A DNA stretch of 20,389 nucleotides from a virus. Location of the stretch: IMG/VR virus record IMGVR_UViG_3300042540_000694, positions 1 through 20,389 of that record; one strand, given 5' to 3'. Below are positions 5,050 to 15,269 of this stretch, in pieces. The notes beneath the pieces were generated by a model. That model was given only the letters and a program-made list of their open reading frames with translations. It did not search any database and was not told where the DNA came from. Position numbers and translations under genes: made by a program. Within the stretch, counting starts at the first letter, position 1. The number at the start of each line of letters is the position of its first letter.

Positions 5050-6258
5050 TTAGAGGCCAGTGGTGCTGGTCGAGCAGGGAAGCGGCAGACCGTCAAACGG
5101 GCAGCGCTTGTACACGATAGCACAGACGTTCTGCGGACGAACGGGCTGAATCGCACGGCTGATTTGGTAGATGTGCTGACCGAAATCGCCATACAGGTTA
5201 CAGTCGTTGTCGCGGAAGTAAGTCCACTCCAGTTCACCCATCGCAAGTTGCGGGGCAAACTTGAAGGTTCCTTCGCCAGTGTAGCTCTCAGGGACGAGGC
5301 GTTTGAACGCATCACCAGCAACCACGAACATGACCTCGTACGGGGCGCTCACCCAAGCCGGGTTACGGCGCTGAGCGAATCCGTTGGTCACAGCAGTGCT
5401 GACGATGGGGTTAACAAGCACCAAGTTGCCAGAACCATCGAATCCAGTGGCGCGGAGCGGCTGTTGGTCGATACCAAAAGCGAACCCACGGTAGCCCATG
5501 AATTGATAGCCAGAGATGCTCTCTTCACCCAAGCGGAAGGAGCCAGCAGACAGATAGTTAAGGTCTTCCTTAACGTCCGCATCGTTGCGGAAGTTTTCGA
5601 TCTGGTCAGCGGACGCCATCACTTGGAAGAACTCGCCATCGCGGGTAGCAAAAGGCTCAGCAAGCATCTCCTCACGGAGGAACGTGCCGATCTTGTACAG
5701 CGACTTGAAGTTCATCGGGCCATCAGGCAGCGCTGGCGCAAACAGGGTATTAATCTGTTGCATATCGCCAGTAAGGTTCTGCGTGAAGGAGCGGGTGCTA
5801 TTAACGGTGAACTTGATGCCAGACTGAATCAGGTACTGATAGCGGATGTCGGCATTGATGATCTGCAGGATAGTCTTCTCAAGGGAGACTTGGGCCTGCA
5901 AATAGCTGCCTTTAAACGCAGTACGAGCCTGTTTCACGCAGACACGGGGGCCAGCGCCACGAAGAGTCTGAAGCTGGAATTGGTATTCCGTGCTTCCGAC
6001 CTGATCAGGGGTAGCACCAACGCCGCAAAGCGTAGTGTCGTTCACGAAGGTTGGCGCAGCCAAAGAGGATGCGGGAACCGCCATTTCTTCGACAACGGAA
6101 CGGACAACGTCAGAGACGTTAGGAAGCGTCCCACCATCGATGGAGTTAATATAGGGCGATTTGCGCGCAAGAACGCGACCAATCTGCCCAATGATACGAT
6201 TTACGTCCTTAGAAGCGAAATTTTGAATTGTCGCTGTAGGGATACATTCATTAGCCAT
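5050..6258 (-). CDS. Major capsid protein
   Basis: A 402-residue protein, the main shell subunit. It was identified from context and pattern: it follows the scaffold-like gene in a terminase-portal-scaffold-capsid order, has its own leader and a hairpin after the stop, and shows a capsid-like series: SPYINSIDGGTLPNVSDVVR near the N-terminus, a long helical segment around residues 115-145, a structured middle, and a C-terminal segment (GQHIYQISRAIQPVRPQNVC) like the last strand of HK97-fold capsids. It is cysteine-rich for a capsid (including CxxxxxxxxC near the C-terminus at YKRCPFDGLPLPC). There is no Shine-Dalgarno before the ATG; instead the leader ends in an A-rich octamer repeat. A 422-codon open frame on the opposite strand is a shadow. 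Confidence 0.87.
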   Translation of the reverse strand: MANECIPTATIQNFASKDVNRIIGQIGRVLARKSPYINSIDGGTLPNVSDVVRSVVEEMAVPASSLAAPTFVNDTTLCGVGATPDQVGSTEYQFQLQTLRGAGPRVCVKQARTAFKGSYLQAQVSLEKTILQIINADIRYQYLIQSGIKFTVNSTRSFTQNLTGDMQQINTLFAPALPDGPMNFKSLYKIGTFLREEMLAEPFATRDGEFFQVMASADQIENFRNDADVKEDLNYLSAGSFRLGEESISGYQFMGYRGFAFGIDQQPLRATGFDGSGNLVLVNPIVSTAVTNGFAQRRNPAWVSAPYEVMFVVAGDAFKRLVPESYTGEGTFKFAPQLAMGELEWTYFRDNDCNLYGDFGQHIYQISRAIQPVRPQNVCAIVYKRCPFDGLPLPCSTSTTGL

Positions 6259-6473: not shown

Positions 6474-7214
6474 CTACGAAATCCTTATGTTTTTGTCAAG
6501 CGCCTTTTTTATAAGAAAATCGATTGGGGCAAAATCCCCGTCAATTGAATAGTGCGTGTCTTTATACGGCACAATGGAATCGGGAATATCAGGCGAAGTT
6601 TCCTGAATGGCTGGATGGTTCAGCGATGCAGCTATCCAGAACGGAGAAGATTGGTTTCCAATAAAAATGGCACTGCCTTCGATTAATTTTGCCAAGTCTA
6701 AAAGGTTATCCACCCACAGTGAAGCAACATGGCCGAATCGATCAATAAAGTCCCCTCGCTCATCGTAGAGGCCCACAAAAATGATGTCCTCTCGGTATTT
6801 CTCTACAATCTTGTGCCAAGGAAACCTGTCGTTTCTGTACTTGTGTGATCTGCAGCATACTATTTTGCCATTTGTCCGCTTATCTTCTTCAACGTCAATC
6901 CACCGATAAACGCTCGGCATCTCAATGCCAAGGGTGCGCGACTGCATTTCAATAATTCCGCACTGTCCCCAATACTTTCTGAACACAGACACGTCATGGT
7001 CAATATCTGTCGGATGCATCTCATAAGTGTGAGAATTTACATATGGAATGGTGTCCAGAAGAGGCTTCAAACAGTCATATTTGAAGCCCTGCATCCAGAA
7101 TCCAGCCTGCCGATCAAAATCTGTAATGACCAAATCCCCGCCACCAAGCGCTCTAAGAGACGGCAAAAAGGCAATAATGTCTCCGATATTCCCTGAATGG
7201 AGGAATCTGCTCAT
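6474..7214 (-). CDS. Glycosyltransferase family 9-like protein (GT-B type)
   Basis: A 246-residue protein with the GT9/heptosyltransferase-like start HSGNIGDIIAFLPSLRAL (residues 6-23), a Gly-rich loop plus helix that shapes the N-terminal Rossmann half. A second half has GKIVCCRSHKYRNDRFPW (donor-domain entry) and a C-terminal FIGNQSSPFWIAASLNHP, like the GT9 segment that contacts the nucleotide-sugar. Cellular GT9 enzymes transfer heptose to lipopolysaccharide. At 246 residues it is shorter than those (around 320-350), as is usual for phage homologues. Its acceptor is unknown. It is the last of three sugar-transfer genes before the capsid gene. A 60-base line in it counts 38 percent G+C, low for the window, suggesting later acquisition. 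Confidence 0.7.
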   Translation of the reverse strand: MSRFLHSGNIGDIIAFLPSLRALGGGDLVITDFDRQAGFWMQGFKYDCLKPLLDTIPYVNSHTYEMHPTDIDHDVSVFRKYWGQCGIIEMQSRTLGIEMPSVYRWIDVEEDKRTNGKIVCCRSHKYRNDRFPWHKIVEKYREDIIFVGLYDERGDFIDRFGHVASLWVDNLLDLAKLIEGSAIFIGNQSSPFWIAASLNHPAIQETSPDIPDSIVPYKDTHYSIDGDFAPIDFLIKKALDKNIRIS

Positions 7215-7227
7215 GTTCGTTCATAGG

Positions 7228-7812
7228 CTATTTCAGAAACTCCATCATTTCTGAAGATTTTGATCGTTCCTTTGTCTTTTTTGCATGGAATACAAGAGGC
7301 AGAATTTCATCTAGTGAAGATGACAGGTTCAAAACGTCTGCTTCGTTCCTCGCTAATCCATTTTCTTCTAGAGGTTCAGCAATGAATTTTGCCAGCGCTG
7401 CAGAACAGTGTTGCTGCGTTGCAAAAAACAAATATGCAGGCTCTTTAGCTACGCAAAGCAAGGTTCCAGAGCTTTCTTTGCTCTCTGCTTCTGATGCCGC
7501 GAACCTGACATTCACAACATCGTAATCTGACATCCATCCGCCGCCTGCAGCATGAAGCGCACACCACCTTCGGTATCTTGCGGCGACCTTGGAGTAATCG
7601 TATCCAGTATTAGATCCAAGAATATTTGCCAACTCGACCAACTTCTTCGTTAGCTTGAAGTAAAAGTTGCTGTTTTTCGCATGAGACGTGTTCAGCATCA
7701 CGGGTTCCCATCCCTGCTGTTTCCATGAAGACTTCCAAGCGTTTGCACAGGCAAACTGCTCTTCTTGCGGAAGCGCCTGCAATGACTCGTAGTAGCTGTA
7801 GATATTTTTCAT
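7228..7812 (-). CDS. Glycosyltransferase with DxD motif (GT32-like)
   Basis: A 194-residue protein with the hallmark of GT32-type enzymes: RYRRWCALHAAGGGWMSDYD (residues 79-98), i.e. an Arg-rich helix, a Gly-rich turn and the metal-binding DxD (D96, D98). These enzymes transfer a sugar from a nucleotide-sugar donor using a divalent metal. The N-terminus (YSYYESLQALPQEEQ...CANAWKSSWKQQGW) also fits, since family members open with a short strand and an Ala-Trp helix. Its ATG overlaps the stop of the preceding transferase as ATGA. Donor and acceptor are unknown. Confidence 0.78.
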   Translation of the reverse strand: MKNIYSYYESLQALPQEEQFACANAWKSSWKQQGWEPVMLNTSHAKNSNFYFKLTKKLVELANILGSNTGYDYSKVAARYRRWCALHAAGGGWMSDYDVVNVRFAASEAESKESSGTLLCVAKEPAYLFFATQQHCSAALAKFIAEPLEENGLARNEADVLNLSSSLDEILPLVFHAKKTKERSKSSEMMEFLK

Positions 7813-8936
7813 CCGTAAATCTTATAGCCAACGTGATAAACAGGCAGGCCAAGGTCGATATGCGCCTGCTCCCCTGCTTCTTTCGCCCTTAGACAGAACG
7901 AAACGTCTTCGCCCCGTTCGGCATCAAACTCCCTGAAATAATCGTAATCGTAATCAGGAGTTTTGACCCTGAGAGAGTCACCGAATTTCTCGCGGATGGC
8001 GGAGAATACTTTCCTGTGGATTAAAAGACATCCAGTGGCAACCCAATCGACGGCAACAACGGCATCTTCGCTGTTTTGTACGCGAGGAGCCAAATTACTG
8101 TCGGAACACATCAAAAGCCCGTTCTCCTGACGCCCGAAATAAGCGCCTCCCACAAGACTTTTGCCTGTTCCGATCAGCCTGTGCAAAACGTGTCGCTGTA
8201 GGGCCACTTCTGGCTTGTTGCGAGACGGCGGAACCCAATATTTCATCCAATTCGGCCTGCCGATACATGGGACGATATCGTCATCAATCATCAGCAGATA
8301 TTTAGCGTCCGTTTCCAAGAACTTCGCCGCCATTCGGTTCCTTGAATGCCCGATTTTGGCGTCCCCAAGGCACATTTCAAAGCGCAGCTTGTCTTTTCCG
8401 AAATCCAGCGCCATTGCCATACAAGCCTGCATTGTAAGGCCATTATGTGGCCCTTTGTGGAAGCAGCACCCAAGCATGATATCTCGGCCAGTGAACTCGC
8501 ACCGATAAGATGGCGCTCCTTCCGCTGAACGTGACTCTATAATGGGGTTTGCAGGAGCAGGCTCAGTTTTAGGTTCTGGCTCTGGAACGGGATCAATCTG
8601 CGTCAACAACTTGGCTTTTTTCGGCTTTTCTGGCTTTGCTGGTTTAGTGCTTTGTTTGATCTGTACCTGTCTCACTGGCGCTGCTGCAGGCGTTTCCTCA
8701 ACGGTTTTTGCGGCAGGCTCATCATAGCGTGAAAAATCACGATTTGACGGAGGGACTTCTGGTTGTTTTAGCGGAACAGAGGGTTGCCCGGGCCGTGCAA
8801 ATGGATCGAAAGAATCCAAAGCATTAAGGGTAACTTGTGTATCAGGGCTTATGCGTATGTTAGACATGATTGTATCTAGTTTATTCTGAAAGAACGCTTT
8901 CGCGTCCTTCAATTTATTTATGCTTATGCCGATCAT
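7809..8936 (-). CDS. GT-A glycosyltransferase (GT2-like) with proline-rich N-terminal extension
   Basis: A 375-residue protein. Residues 45-140 are low-complexity and rich in Pro, Glu, Lys and Ala (for example VPEPEPKTEPAPANP). The catalytic part starts at about 150: SRNRMAAKFLETDAKYLLMI followed by DDD (218-220), the metal and donor site; VDWVATGCLLIHRKVF; and RGEDVSFCLRAKEAG with ED at 343-344 as the likely base, ending in a late His (H368). This is a GT2-style order. The ATG at 8936 overlaps the scaffold stop as ATGA with GAGG upstream; an ATG at 8867 (MSNIRIS) is an alternative without a clear ribosome site. The disordered arm could tether the enzyme to a partner. Product sugar unknown. 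Confidence 0.83.
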   Translation of the reverse strand: MIGISINKLKDAKAFFQNKLDTIMSNIRISPDTQVTLNALDSFDPFARPGQPSVPLKQPEVPPSNRDFSRYDEPAAKTVEETPAAAPVRQVQIKQSTKPAKPEKPKKAKLLTQIDPVPEPEPKTEPAPANPIIESRSAEGAPSYRCEFTGRDIMLGCCFHKGPHNGLTMQACMAMALDFGKDKLRFEMCLGDAKIGHSRNRMAAKFLETDAKYLLMIDDDIVPCIGRPNWMKYWVPPSRNKPEVALQRHVLHRLIGTGKSLVGGAYFGRQENGLLMCSDSNLAPRVQNSEDAVVAVDWVATGCLLIHRKVFSAIREKFGDSLRVKTPDYDYDYFREFDAERGEDVSFCLRAKEAGEQAHIDLGLPVYHVGYKIYG

Positions 8937-10210
8937 GCTCCAGCCTCATCCAAACCAAGATCGATAGCATCACTTGCCGACATTTTTATCCTGTCGTTCA
9001 GGTTGCTTCCCTTGCTTGCGTTGGATCCAGTGACCGTGCTTCGGGGCATACGAGAAGCGCCCTTAATTTTGCTGTTTTCGTCACTGATTTTTTTCAATTG
9101 CGCCTGAAGCTGCTGTCTGGCCTGTTGCTCAATTTGAAGCTGTTCGACCAGAACGTGAGAGAAAACGGCTGCAGCAGCCACTTCTGCCCTTTCCTGAGAC
9201 GTTGTGGGCCACAGGGCAGACTCAAATTTCTCAGACAGGTCTGCAACCTTGGCGTTATGGCTTTCAATCGCCTGACGTTCCTCAGGAGTCGCATTCGGAT
9301 TAGGCTCATAGAACCGCGCCCAAGGGATTTCTTTGGTGACGGCATCAATGTGCTGATAAATCTGCGACTTTTCGTTTTCGTACCAGTGAAGATTGGCCTC
9401 GCCGCGCTTCACCATGAACTGCTCAATATTATTGGAAGCGTCTTCAATCTCCATTTGCTGAGCGTTTTGCAGCTTGTGTATTTCCTTTAGCCCATCTTTC
9501 AGGACTTCGGCGTCCAGCATCGGCAATTTGTCGATTGCATTGGACTTCCACCAATTCTGATCAATTTTGGAAGGGCCACCAGCTTTCTCAATAGATGCAA
9601 TTACGTCATCGGACGCTCCATGCTTACGCAAAAGTCCGTAAATAGTGTCTTTTGCCGTGGAGATCGGTTTTTCGTATCGCGCCTGAAACTCTGAGTCGTT
9701 CTTCAGGTCGAAAATCTGCCTGAACTTCTTCAGATCCTCATAGTCTTGTGGAACCTGTTGCTGACCAGATTCCATTTGCTGGACTCGCTGGCGCAATGCT
9801 TCAGCTTCTTGGGCCTGCTGCTTGTAAATCGATGCCGTTTCTTGGAGTTTTTTCCAATTGTTGCGGTTTGCCTCGGAAAGATTGCGAGGCGGCTCAATAG
9901 ACGCGATTTCTGGATCGATATCAGTGGCTGGAGACTGCTGAGGAGCGGCTTGAGGCGCTGCAGGCTGTTGTTCCAAGGCGGCTTTGACCTCTGAGGCGCT
10001 AACTGGCTCTGGTTCGGATTCAGGCTCGGATTCAGGCTCTCCGCCCGTTTCTTGAATGGCCTCGTCCAGCAGCGAATCAATCGCCGCATCGGTATCGTCG
10101 CTAATCTTGTCTGCATCCAGTGAAGGATTGCCGAAAGACGCTGCCGCTGTGGGTTCTGGAACGGAATTATCCTGATCCAATGTGGGTTCTGTATCGATGT
10201 CTGTTGTCAT
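8933..10210 (-). CDS. Scaffolding-like protein
   Basis: A 425-residue protein with an acidic, disordered N-terminus (residues 1-110, including an ESEPESEPEP run encoded by a 12-base tandem repeat), a long coiled coil at about 120-155 (EANRNNWKKLQETASIYKQQ onward), a helical core, a second Gln-rich coiled coil at about 355-385 (LEQ..QARQQLQAQLKKI), and a short C-terminus with KGSNLNDRIKMSASDAIDLG. Acidic, Gln-rich, coiled-coil proteins just upstream of the capsid gene are typical scaffolds that guide procapsid assembly and bind the shell through the C-terminus. Here three transferase genes separate it from the capsid gene, which is unusual. No protease domain is present. The start has an A-rich leader and no Shine-Dalgarno. 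Confidence 0.75.
   Translation of the reverse strand: MTTDIDTEPTLDQDNSVPEPTAAASFGNPSLDADKISDDTDAAIDSLLDEAIQETGGEPESEPESEPEPVSASEVKAALEQQPAAPQAAPQQSPATDIDPEIASIEPPRNLSEANRNNWKKLQETASIYKQQAQEAEALRQRVQQMESGQQQVPQDYEDLKKFRQIFDLKNDSEFQARYEKPISTAKDTIYGLLRKHGASDDVIASIEKAGGPSKIDQNWWKSNAIDKLPMLDAEVLKDGLKEIHKLQNAQQMEIEDASNNIEQFMVKRGEANLHWYENEKSQIYQHIDAVTKEIPWARFYEPNPNATPEERQAIESHNAKVADLSEKFESALWPTTSQERAEVAAAAVFSHVLVEQLQIEQQARQQLQAQLKKISDENSKIKGASRMPRSTVTGSNASKGSNLNDRIKMSASDAIDLGLDEAGA
10015..10038. repeat. 12-base tandem repeat, two copies
   Basis: Two perfect adjacent copies of CGGATTCAGGCT at 10015-10026 and 10027-10038. They encode the ESEP repeats in the acidic arm of the scaffold-like protein and are probably a slippage expansion. 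Confidence 0.85.
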
Positions 10211-10215
10211 AGATT

Positions 10216-10473
10216 TTATTTATTTTTCATGGACTTTGCTCCACGGCATTTCCATTTTTTCCTAGAAAGACTGTTGGGAGAATTAGGATCATTTTTCCAA
10301 TCGCCCTTGATCTTCAAAGAACGAGCACAGTAGGCATCACCCTTCTTGGTGCCGGGGCGGATGCGATCTTTTCCGTCCTTCGCTTTTCCCGCCTGACCGT
10401 ATTTGACCGTGCGCGTTCGGCCAGTTGCCTTATTTGTCACGATTTTTGTGAAGCGCTTTTTGATCGTTGCCAT
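10216..10473 (-). CDS. Small basic protein, hypothetical
   Basis: An 85-residue, strongly basic protein starting MATIKKRFTKIVTNKATGRT, with a Gly/Lys-rich middle (KYGQAGKAKDGKDRIRPG) and a C-terminal block DAYCARSLKIKGDWKNDPNS then SRKKWKCRG. The last block, with two cysteines and a W, looks like a conserved phage segment I have seen in small virion-region proteins, but I cannot name a family. The frame is open to 10572, but that extension would lie mostly inside the previous gene; the ATG at 10473 follows its stop by 10 bases. It is just upstream of the scaffold gene. DNA binding or head-assembly help is guesswork from charge and position. Confidence 0.72.
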   Translation of the reverse strand: MATIKKRFTKIVTNKATGRTRTVKYGQAGKAKDGKDRIRPGTKKGDAYCARSLKIKGDWKNDPNSPNSLSRKKWKCRGAKSMKNK

Positions 10474-10483
10474 AAACTTCGTG

Positions 10484-10723
10484 CTACATTTCCGCAAACT
10501 TCCCGCTCGACGGATCAATGTTTTGAGCAGGGTCTGCCAACATTTCTTGAATGTCTTTGACTGCTTTTTCATATCCCTCTTTGTATTTCGCTTCTAGTGC
10601 TACGGTTTCGATGGTCTTCCCATTGCAAAGAGGAATGCGCGAAAGCATCACCTGAAGGAGTCTTCCTCCAGATCGTTTATGATAGTCGCGAAATGTTGCT
10701 ACGTCAGATTCTTCCCAATTCAT
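10484..10723 (-). CDS. Small hypothetical protein
   Basis: A 79-residue protein, MNWEESDVATFRDYHKRSGG at the start, then LLQVMLSRIPLCNGKTIETV, and a helical middle (EAKYKEGYEKAVKDIQEML). Not recognised as a named family. The frame is open to 10804, but the ATG at 10723 overlaps the stop of the upstream transferase as ATGA, so the short form is chosen. The Tyr-rich helix suggests a small packing or assembly protein, but nothing catalytic is visible. It lies between a glycosyltransferase and a small basic protein in the pre-scaffold block. Confidence 0.7.
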   Translation of the reverse strand: MNWEESDVATFRDYHKRSGGRLLQVMLSRIPLCNGKTIETVALEAKYKEGYEKAVKDIQEMLADPAQNIDPSSGKFAEM

Positions 10724-11331
10724 TTTATGTATTCTTTTAGTATGTTGATCCTGTCTTCGTTTGGAAGGCTTGGCAGATGCAAGGCGAAATCGCCTTCCTG
10801 CCATGAGGCCAGCCTGCAGTTCGGATAATCGTATGCATCAGGATGATATGAGTTAAGTTCGCGCTGCGAGACATACTCCACGATTCCTGCGTATGGGTAT
10901 ACGGAAGAAAAATGTTGGATGGCCTGCTGTTCTCCATTCGGCCTGTCTCCGAATAGAGTTTTCCCATGATTGCTGCAGGCAAAGAAGAACGCTTTTGACC
11001 AAGGCGTGTTTCGGATCAAAATCGCCCCTGCATTTAGTCCATTTATGTCTGCCGTCAGAAATACGTCCGCCGCCCTGTTCTCGTCCAGAATCCACGTAAT
11101 TGGCTTCGGGTTTGTTATCAGGACATCCGCATCCAGCCACAGAACAGTTGAGTAATTTCCCATTAGGAAGTTGCTGATCATGTTCAGCTTTTCCCACAGG
11201 CAGTTCTCCTGCTCGACTTTGATTGCTTCCTGATGCCACCCGTATGATTCCGCGAATTTTATGTGTGATGGAATGGTAATGTCGGCAACAGCCTGCATCT
11301 TGTCTGTATACAAGCTGATGACTGCTTTCAT
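10720..11331 (-). CDS. GT34-like glycosyltransferase (galactosyl/mannosyl-transferase type)
   Basis: A 203-residue protein with GT34 features: WEKLNMISNFL (46-56), a strand then LWLDADVLITNP (64-75) holding DAD at 67-69 for metal and donor, TADINGLNAGAILIRNTPWS (93-112) with the NAG acceptor-side motif, EQQAIQH, and a late GDFALHLPSLPNEDR with His185. GT34 enzymes in eukaryotes and phages add galactose, xylose or mannose; the sugar is not predictable here. The ATG overlaps the stop of the preceding Lys/Met-rich gene (ATGA), and its stop overlaps the next start. The core is complete for a short phage version. Confidence in the family is high, in the acceptor nil. Confidence 0.85.
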   Translation of the reverse strand: MKAVISLYTDKMQAVADITIPSHIKFAESYGWHQEAIKVEQENCLWEKLNMISNFLMGNYSTVLWLDADVLITNPKPITWILDENRAADVFLTADINGLNAGAILIRNTPWSKAFFFACSNHGKTLFGDRPNGEQQAIQHFSSVYPYAGIVEYVSQRELNSYHPDAYDYPNCRLASWQEGDFALHLPSLPNEDRINILKEYIK

Positions 11332-14044: not shown

Positions 14045-14626
14045 TTAGTATTGGTTCAACCAGCAGTGAGGATGAAGATCCGCTGGCGCTGTGAAGTGGC
14101 TCCTGTCAAAGAATATCGCCGTCCTATTGTCATGCCGTAGCTGTCTACATCCTCCAAGAGTCTTGCTGGTTTTCGTGTCGCGAGCCTGTCTAAGGCTCGT
14201 TGAAAGTCTGTCCGCCGCAAAAATGCACGATTTGCATCCTGATTTCCATGCTATATTGTTTGGACAGGTCTTGCAAATCTTCGCACGTTGTTCGGCCAAG
14301 TCATCCGAAACAAGCAAGTGCTGGTTTTTAGATCCTGCCAAGTTCCGCGCCCAAACCGTGATATCCTGCAGCAGTTCTGCCGCTGGAGTTTGTGCAGCTA
14401 CGCTTGTAATTGCCACCATATCAACTCCGTGACAATGGTTTGGGTAATTACTGCAAAGGAAAGAGTTTACATCTCCCTCAACATCGCCAAGAGGCAAATG
14501 ATTTTCTGCCCTGTAGTTGGTCACCGTCTCGTAAAGACCATCCAATGTAATGGCATCAAGCCTGACATCACTTTCGTAGTAATGCCAGCCACCGGGCGGA
14601 GTAAATCCCCATATTGGTTTTGCCAT
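14045..14626 (-). CDS. Cysteine-rich zinc-ribbon-like phage protein
   Basis: A 193-residue protein starting MAKPIWGFTPPGGWHYYE. Residues 20-75 form a helical domain (LYETVTNYRAENHLPLGDVE and on, with SNYPNHCHG). Residues 113-193 contain CKTC (118-121), CKSC (131-134), C160 and HCW near the end, a spacing suited to zinc. The layout echoes the 96-residue protein at 18.4 kb. I know the front segment from other phages as an unassigned conserved domain; no function is established to my knowledge. The frame is open to 14770, but that form overlaps the methyltransferase by 110 bases; the ATG at 14626 marks the domain start although it lacks a Shine-Dalgarno. Confidence 0.75.
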   Translation of the reverse strand: MAKPIWGFTPPGGWHYYESDVRLDAITLDGLYETVTNYRAENHLPLGDVEGDVNSFLCSNYPNHCHGVDMVAITSVAAQTPAAELLQDITVWARNLAGSKNQHLLVSDDLAEQRAKICKTCPNNIAWKSGCKSCIFAADRLSTSLRQARDTKTSKTLGGCRQLRHDNRTAIFFDRSHFTAPADLHPHCWLNQY

Positions 14627-14660
14627 AATATTCGACGGGGGGTTATGTATTTCTTCGGGA

Positions 14661-15269
14661 CTACTTGCTGAAGAGGCTGGAGATTCCTCCACCCTTTTTC
14701 TGAATAACAAACTCAATAAACGCTTCAACACGATCCTCAAAGTTATAGGTCTGATCCACCCTTGTGCCAACCTTATAATCGTAATTGGTATCGACCAACC
14801 GACATAGGCAAACCGTATGCTCAGGGAAGTTGTCCGCCAGCCAATCAGGACACTTTACATGGTTCGGAGCGGGACTGTCCTTCTGCCACATACTAAACGT
14901 AATCTTATGGTCAGGGTTGTATCGGCTCGGCCATACCATTCCCTCATACAGTTCCCAACTAGGAACAGTCACCACAAGATACCCGCCCGGCTTCAGCACC
15001 TGTATCCAGTTCTCCAGCGCCACCTTCGGGTTGTGCATATGCTCCAAGCACTGGCTCGCATGGACATAATCGAACCAGTTCGATTCAAAATATAAATGCA
15101 GGCTATTGGCATCGCCGTCCCCCATGTCAAACCCTCGCACCCCTTCCACAGCAATCAAATCATCCCCTGATCCGACATCAATCCCGCTCCCGCTGAATAC
15201 TGTCTTCCAAAATTCTGACTCCTTCGGATCGGTAAATCTTCGGAGCATCGCTTTGCTGGATTCGCGCAT
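14661..15269 (-). CDS. Class I SAM-dependent methyltransferase
   Basis: A 202-residue Rossmann-fold methyltransferase. Motif I is GIDVGSGDD (29-37), an acidic residue at about 48 closes strand 2, FDYVHASQCLEHMHNP (66-81) is the motif IV/V region, and LKPGGYLVVTVP (92-103) is the strand-5 signature of Methyltransf_11/23-type enzymes. There is no NPPY or PCQ-type catalytic motif, so DNA methylation is unlikely; small-molecule, sugar or protein substrates are more typical for this class. It starts 13 bases after the TerL stop. Given the transferase genes downstream, methylation of a sugar or of a virion protein is a reasonable guess. Confidence 0.88.
   Translation of the reverse strand: MRESSKAMLRRFTDPKESEFWKTVFSGSGIDVGSGDDLIAVEGVRGFDMGDGDANSLHLYFESNWFDYVHASQCLEHMHNPKVALENWIQVLKPGGYLVVTVPSWELYEGMVWPSRYNPDHKITFSMWQKDSPAPNHVKCPDWLADNFPEHTVCLCRLVDTNYDYKVGTRVDQTYNFEDRVEAFIEFVIQKKGGGISSLFSK

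Follow-up and report, generated by a model that had tools for sequence, protein, structure and literature searches.

Two core glycosyltransferase genes and exchangeable sugar-modifying cargo in the head operon of a metagenome-derived phage lineage, and the association of the cargo and of one core enzyme with the C-terminus of the putative major capsid protein

The 20,389-base virus record IMGVR_UViG_3300042540_000694 of the IMG/VR database (hereafter the window, whose positions serve as coordinates) carries all of its head genes on the minus strand, and among them, between the putative portal and the putative major capsid protein (MCP), lie four intact glycosyltransferase-like open reading frames (ORFs), exactly where a first-pass annotation had reported them (Table 1). 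This arrangement raises the question of whether the four enzymes act as one set, and on what acceptor. The annotation had read them as a sequential glycan-building set modifying either virion proteins or a host surface polymer. Its observation is confirmed here, and its interpretation is partly supported and narrowed, since comparison of related sequences suggests the C-terminus of the MCP as the best-supported acceptor. The set itself resolves into two core transferases, designated GTA and GT32-like, and exchangeable cargo, the GT9-like and GT34-like genes, to which a methyltransferase gene outside the four is added.

Relatives of the window, gathered through MCP and TerL searches, constitute a metagenome-derived lineage of phages of about 60 kb, and gene content was surveyed for those 108 distinct MCPs whose sequences extend far enough upstream. 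The scaffold-like, GTA and GT32-like genes are present in 108/108, both transferases being located between scaffold and MCP. In contrast to this constant pair, GT9-like is found in 53/108 and GT34-like in only 10/108, so that co-occurrence with this capsid type holds for two of the four genes and a single four-gene unit is rejected; a methyltransferase lies upstream of MCP in 27/108. The scaffold-like gene is directly upstream of GTA in all 116 GTA genes with upstream sequence, and the MCP follows no more than 6 kb downstream in 112 of the 113 that could be tested. Mantel correlations with portal and scaffold distances were 0.67-0.83 for GTA and GT32 versus 0.39-0.60 for GT9.

The cargo also changes its place. 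GT34-like occupies the same location as in the window only in close relatives and is elsewhere found between GT9 and MCP, where relatives also have a methyltransferase gene, mostly 60-71% identical to that of the window; the window methyltransferase probably belongs to the same cargo. Alternative occupants of the slot between GT32 and MCP include other GT-like proteins, a Stealth/DUF6492-type protein, methyltransferases of Pfam families 21, 23 and 24, and a protein with an FGE-sulfatase domain. The last, exemplified by L035:8171-9250 (SUMF1-like domain, Pfam E 6.1e-21, preceded by a hydrophobic N-terminal stretch), was observed in about 17/108 and replaces the accessory transferases in many genomes that are without them.

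A tree of 91 distinct genomes was constructed from the scaffold, the portal and the MCP minus its tail, the tail being the residues after the last cysteine (STSTTGL in the window, CSTSTTGL with the cysteine). The tail is seven residues long in 45/45 genomes with accessory sugar genes, and the fourth-last position of the MCP (-4) is Ser or Thr in 39/45 accessory-positive versus 0/46 accessory-negative genomes. When 2,069 column traits of MCP, scaffold and portal were scanned, the top five all fell within the last five MCP residues, the best phi being 0.88 versus 0.66 for the strongest column elsewhere. The association of tail Ser/Thr with accessory genes is also supported by Pagel's test (p 7e-6). 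A general enrichment in Ser/Thr was considered and set aside, the Ser/Thr fractions of the MCP body, scaffold and portal barely differing (r 0.11-0.25). That the MCP tail simply hitchhiked with the cargo next to it is likewise disfavoured, since the associated residues are encoded at the 3' end of MCP, the end farther from the cargo; physical linkage fails to explain it because the N-terminal-side MCP columns, which adjoin the cargo, reach a phi of at most 0.39. Columns of TerL score high as well (phi 0.89), but this protein is present in just 22 genomes, too few to judge. Within GTA, residues 345 (7902-7904) and 188 (8373-8375) also track the presence of accessory genes (phi 0.86 and 0.82), and are possible specificity positions.

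A second association links the MCP tail to the active site of GTA. Ten candidate catalytic positions had been listed before the tail was inspected, and seven of them (R199, N200, D218, D220, E343, D344 and H368) were used to call the site intact or substituted in 67 long-tail and 24 short-tail genomes. All seven are invariant in 67/67 long-tail genomes, while at least one is substituted in 22/24 short-tail genomes, belonging to four of five short-tail lineages. The changes comprise E343 to D, G or Q (21/24), D220N (12/24), D218A or D218G (3/24), H368N and R199K, while D344 is kept in all 91 genomes. They are concentrated at the seven positions, where 57 of 168 residue cells of the short-tail genomes are substituted (34%), versus 20/696 (2.9%) at the 29 other GTA positions that are invariant in long-tail genomes. 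Taken over whole proteins, long-tail-invariant positions are altered in short-tail genomes at 8.9% in GTA versus 0.5-1.9% in GT32, scaffold, portal and MCP. Short-tail genomes that retain the ending TGL (DTGL, ETGL, VTGL) are the least altered, with the exception of ATGL in L329. Across all distinct tail/GTA pairs the site is intact in 70/70 with a long tail and substituted in 26/28 with a short one, and the four pairs outside the tree set agree with this pattern. Pagel's test gave p 1.7e-5, and independent pairs were 4:0. To the first-pass annotation the catalytic motifs looked intact; they are present in the window and conserved in most relatives, though not in all, and the GTA substitutions, occurring in relatives whose MCP lost its Ser/Thr tail, are informative rather than refuting. 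Phages lacking the MCP tail would have kept the GTA gene under a changed selection on its active site.

In the simplest account, the operon probably represents a phage-borne virion glycosylation system, in which GTA most likely puts the first sugar on Ser/Thr of the MCP tail and the accessory genes extend or cap the glycan. The transferase genes are linked both to structural genes and to features of a candidate acceptor, as expected for virion glycosylation. GTA, produced alongside scaffold and capsid, would attach the first sugar through an O-linkage, and the GT9-like, GT34-like and methyltransferase products, or other sets in relatives, would subsequently lengthen or cap the glycan and give rise to a phage-specific coat. 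The tail would in that case be exposed on the virion, and the benefit could be shielding or adhesion. GT32-like is the second core transferase and possibly has another acceptor, because it is intact where the tail is lost.

Several observations weigh against this reading. Cut-offs for tail length and for Ser/Thr were chosen after the tails had been seen, and six accessory-positive genomes have Ala at position -4. Strictly independent pairs for tail versus accessory genes number about four concordant and none discordant, too few for significance; independent-pairs tests in general never reversed the pattern, though the number of events behind them is only about 4-5 (p 0.06-0.125). Few clades are represented, and the genomes are metagenomic assemblies. 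The identities of MCP and portal, neither of which gave a database match, are assigned from synteny and conservation, the putative MCP showing the strongest conservation among the head proteins (mean pairwise identity 0.86). Some of the GTA substitutions in short-tail genomes (E343D, R199K) are mild and may have altered the activity rather than abolished it, and the active-site residues of GT32-like are intact in short-tail genomes.

The last observation, which implies that one of the core enzymes, if not both, probably acts on something besides the tail or serves another function, agrees with a scenario in which virions are glycosylated mainly on another protein (a tail, fibre or other head protein), the MCP tail co-varying for structural or host-related reasons; glycans on tail tubes of mycobacteriophages, as cited in PMC12619734, are also in line with it. 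We consider this scenario unlikely, since among the scanned head proteins phi exceeds 0.7 only in MCP tail columns, and changes of the GTA active site follow tail loss in several lineages. It is distinctly less probable that GTA, despite its glycosyltransferase fold, serves chiefly in structure or assembly and that the active-site pattern reflects clade history alone. Lineages without the MCP tail do keep GTA with a substituted active site, and its N-terminal motif is conserved ahead of a variable linker; against this, the active site is invariant in all long-tail genomes and the changes concentrate there in separate lineages.

Acceptors outside the virion were also assessed. Enzymes of the GT9 and GT34 types act on lipopolysaccharide or polysaccharides in other organisms, and phage-borne conversion of the host serotype is known, which would be in keeping with late modification of a host surface polymer for receptor masking or superinfection exclusion. 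Such a function is improbable here. The core pair never occurs outside the head block, the genes examined included neither a lipid-linked initiating transferase nor a flippase, and enzymes acting on the host surface would not be expected to co-vary with residues at the MCP C-terminus. Of the two acceptors originally proposed, the comparison favours the virion protein, more precisely the MCP C-terminus, and nothing found favours the host surface. Finally, the sugars might be built on phage DNA, as hypermodified bases, like in phages with TET and TET-associated glycosyltransferase (TAGT) genes, and TAGT (7/29) or Tet_JBP (3/29) genes are indeed present in some relatives. However, only a minority of genomes have them, and they are placed outside the head operon, at a distance of about 12 kb in the close relatives, without tracking GTA, which is present in 29/29; a thymidylate-synthase relative was found in none of the 29 genomes, and the MCP-tail link would be left unexplained. 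DNA hypermodification is therefore disfavoured as highly improbable. In one close relative the TAGT gene (L337:15153-16025, E 1.9e-37) is located near the terminase end.

Fold predictions bear on the class of the two core enzymes, but not on their activity. AlphaFold (AF2) models of GTA and GT32-like were built from family alignments. GTA consists of an N-terminal motif, SPxExxTxxALDSxDPF, a linker of low confidence and a GT-A domain from about residue 148, where the predicted local distance difference test (pLDDT) score is 80-90, rising to mostly >90 from about residue 200. The model matches many GT-A enzymes with Z scores of 12-17 and combines a GT-A fold with a DxD motif and a probable acidic catalytic residue; its matches include the glycosyltransferase-like domain of human LH3 (Z 17.1), A197 of the virus STIV (Z 16.7) and Mnn9 (Z 15.0). 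The window GTA has no Pfam hit, and among 44 relatives only sub-threshold hits were obtained, to Anp1 in 14 and to GT2 in 13. The GT32-like model (pLDDT 95.2) has a glycogenin-type retaining GT-A fold of the GT8/GT32/GT44 kind (glycogenin Z 10.7). No glycosyltransferase Pfam hit was found in any of 56 members of this family, including the window protein, and it is named by motif only; of its DYD residues, D98 is kept in 90/91 genomes and D96 in 88/91. GT34-like is assigned by Pfam (PF05637, 61.3 bits versus a curated cut-off of 23), and its D67 and D69 are conserved (≥90%) among eight compared sequences. The GT9-like label rests on a motif and a weak profile match: the window protein is below the threshold for Pfam GT9 (PF01075, E 0.048, 13.4 bits versus 22), and 8/28 family members match, with a best E of 0.0013; the family retains G8/G11-D12 near the N-terminus and G186-N-Q-S189. 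The first-pass reading of the genes as transferase folds that have conserved catalytic motifs and are set within the head operon is supported.

The N-terminal motif of GTA, at about 8795-8870 of the window, is conserved ahead of the variable linker and could be a docking peptide. In most relatives GTA begins near Met24 of the window protein, and the overlap of scaffold and GTA may be an upstream extension of the GTA start. GTA is present in a single copy in 28 of 29 long records; the remaining 71-kb record, IMGVR_UViG_3300046002_001774 (L058, G013), contains GTA genes at 61035-62156 and 550-1542 and a second GT32 (L279), and is possibly a mixed assembly.

Protein glycosylation by phage-encoded enzymes has precedents. 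In mycobacteriophages such as Che8 and Rita, phage glycosyltransferases decorate virion proteins, and the capsid and tail tube carry the glycans at their C-termini (Freeman 2023, as cited in PMC12619734, PMC11256854 and PMC13313380); the likeness to the present lineage lies in the phage-encoded transferases and in the capsid C-terminus, here the proposed site. Glycosylation was demonstrated by experiment there. The positions differ as well, the genes of Maravista being near the 3' end of the genome (PMC11256854) and the two transferases of this lineage being flanked by scaffold and MCP in all relatives. A glycosyltransferase together with a methyltransferase was read as a sign of virion glycosylation in a Rhodococcus phage (PMC13313380).

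The fold matches include further viral enzymes. The GTA match to STIV A197 (2c0n), a small GT-A enzyme encoded by an archaeal virus, has a root-mean-square deviation of 2.4 over 166 residues with 17% identity, and the 191-residue chain of A197 has therefore no counterpart of the GTA N-terminal motif and linker. Domains of the LH3, COLGALT1 and Mnn9 type, which are cellular secretory-pathway enzymes, resemble the GTA domain in fold (Z 15-17, 13-15% identity). PBCV-1, a chlorovirus, is an algal virus with an unrelated capsid. Its virus-encoded transferase (2p73/2p6w) functions in glycosylation of the major capsid protein, and entry 2p73 was the top Foldseek match of the GT32-like model, albeit weak (E 0.02); PDB sequence search detected no relationship between the two, and PDB searches with the GTA, GT32, GT9 and MCP profiles gave nothing meaningful.

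Virion glycosylation has been demonstrated in few phages, and acceptor sites are seldom known. In this lineage the comparison of genomes by itself indicates a specific acceptor, the last MCP residues, as well as a particular candidate for the priming step and a slot with interchangeable cargo, and relatives with a lost tail and an altered enzyme active site provide natural controls. A more far-reaching model, which we put forward tentatively and with less than even confidence, is that capsid glycosylation is built into head assembly, a dedicated O-glycosyltransferase priming the MCP C-terminus, maybe docked via its N-terminal motif, and the cargo slot setting the type of glycan. If so, related phages could switch their coat by cargo exchange while retaining the same capsid.

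The lineage is found in many metagenomes, and the phage collection searched contains almost nothing related to it. Sequence searches with MCP, TerL, portal, GT32 and GT9 gave no match among 50,697 GenBank phage records, and GTA gave one partial hit (28%), outside a head operon. Bacterial and archaeal genomes, scanned with an MCP profile in search of a host, contained no relative.

Table 1. Features of the window discussed in the text.
Feature	Position	Strand	Basis or remarks
Portal (putative)	14043-11620	-	Gene order and conservation; followed by a small ORF before GT34-like
Accessory GT34-like glycosyltransferase, 203 aa, DAD 67-69	10720..11331	-	Pfam GT34 E 1.5e-16
Scaffold-like protein, 425 aa	8933..10210	-	Position and composition
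Core GT-A-fold glycosyltransferase (GTA), 375 aa	7809..8936	-	Start 8936 or about 8867
GTA D218-D219-D220, DxD-like motif	8277..8285	-	Conservation in long-tail genomes
GTA E343-D344, probable catalytic pair	7905..7910	-	Conservation in long-tail genomes
Core GT32-like glycosyltransferase, 194 aa	7228..7812	-	Motif R79..R82..GGGW-SDYD(96-98)
Accessory GT9-like (heptosyltransferase-type) protein, 246 aa	6474..7214	-	Weak Pfam GT9 match and motif
Putative major capsid protein (MCP), 402 aa	5050..6258	-	Place after scaffold and high conservation
MCP C-terminal tail S396-T-S-T-T-G-L402, proposed glycan acceptor	5053..5073	-	T399 is the fourth-last residue, 5062-5064
Class I S-adenosylmethionine (SAM) methyltransferase, 202 aa	14661..15269	-	Pfam Methyltransf_11/23 E 1.8e-9; outside the range originally noted

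Two small ORFs separate GT34-like from the scaffold-like gene. The ATGA overlaps previously ascribed to several of the genes are found at four junctions, two of which involve small ORFs (ORF/GT34, GT34/ORF, scaffold/GTA and GTA/GT32), but not at GT32/GT9, where there is a gap of 13 nucleotides. A conserved protein with a Cys-rich segment is encoded between TerL and portal (14045-14770); it is present in most relatives, with a length of about 190 aa, and has no Pfam match. A gene with a PAPS-reductase domain occurs among the putative tail genes of one relative (L336:2994-3842, Pfam E 1.1e-6). Contig G002 (L338/L339) contains at 48597-61406 a single ORF of 4,269 aa, of which a 3,800-aa part was searched and had no Pfam match; its product is perhaps an ejected or polyvalent virion protein.

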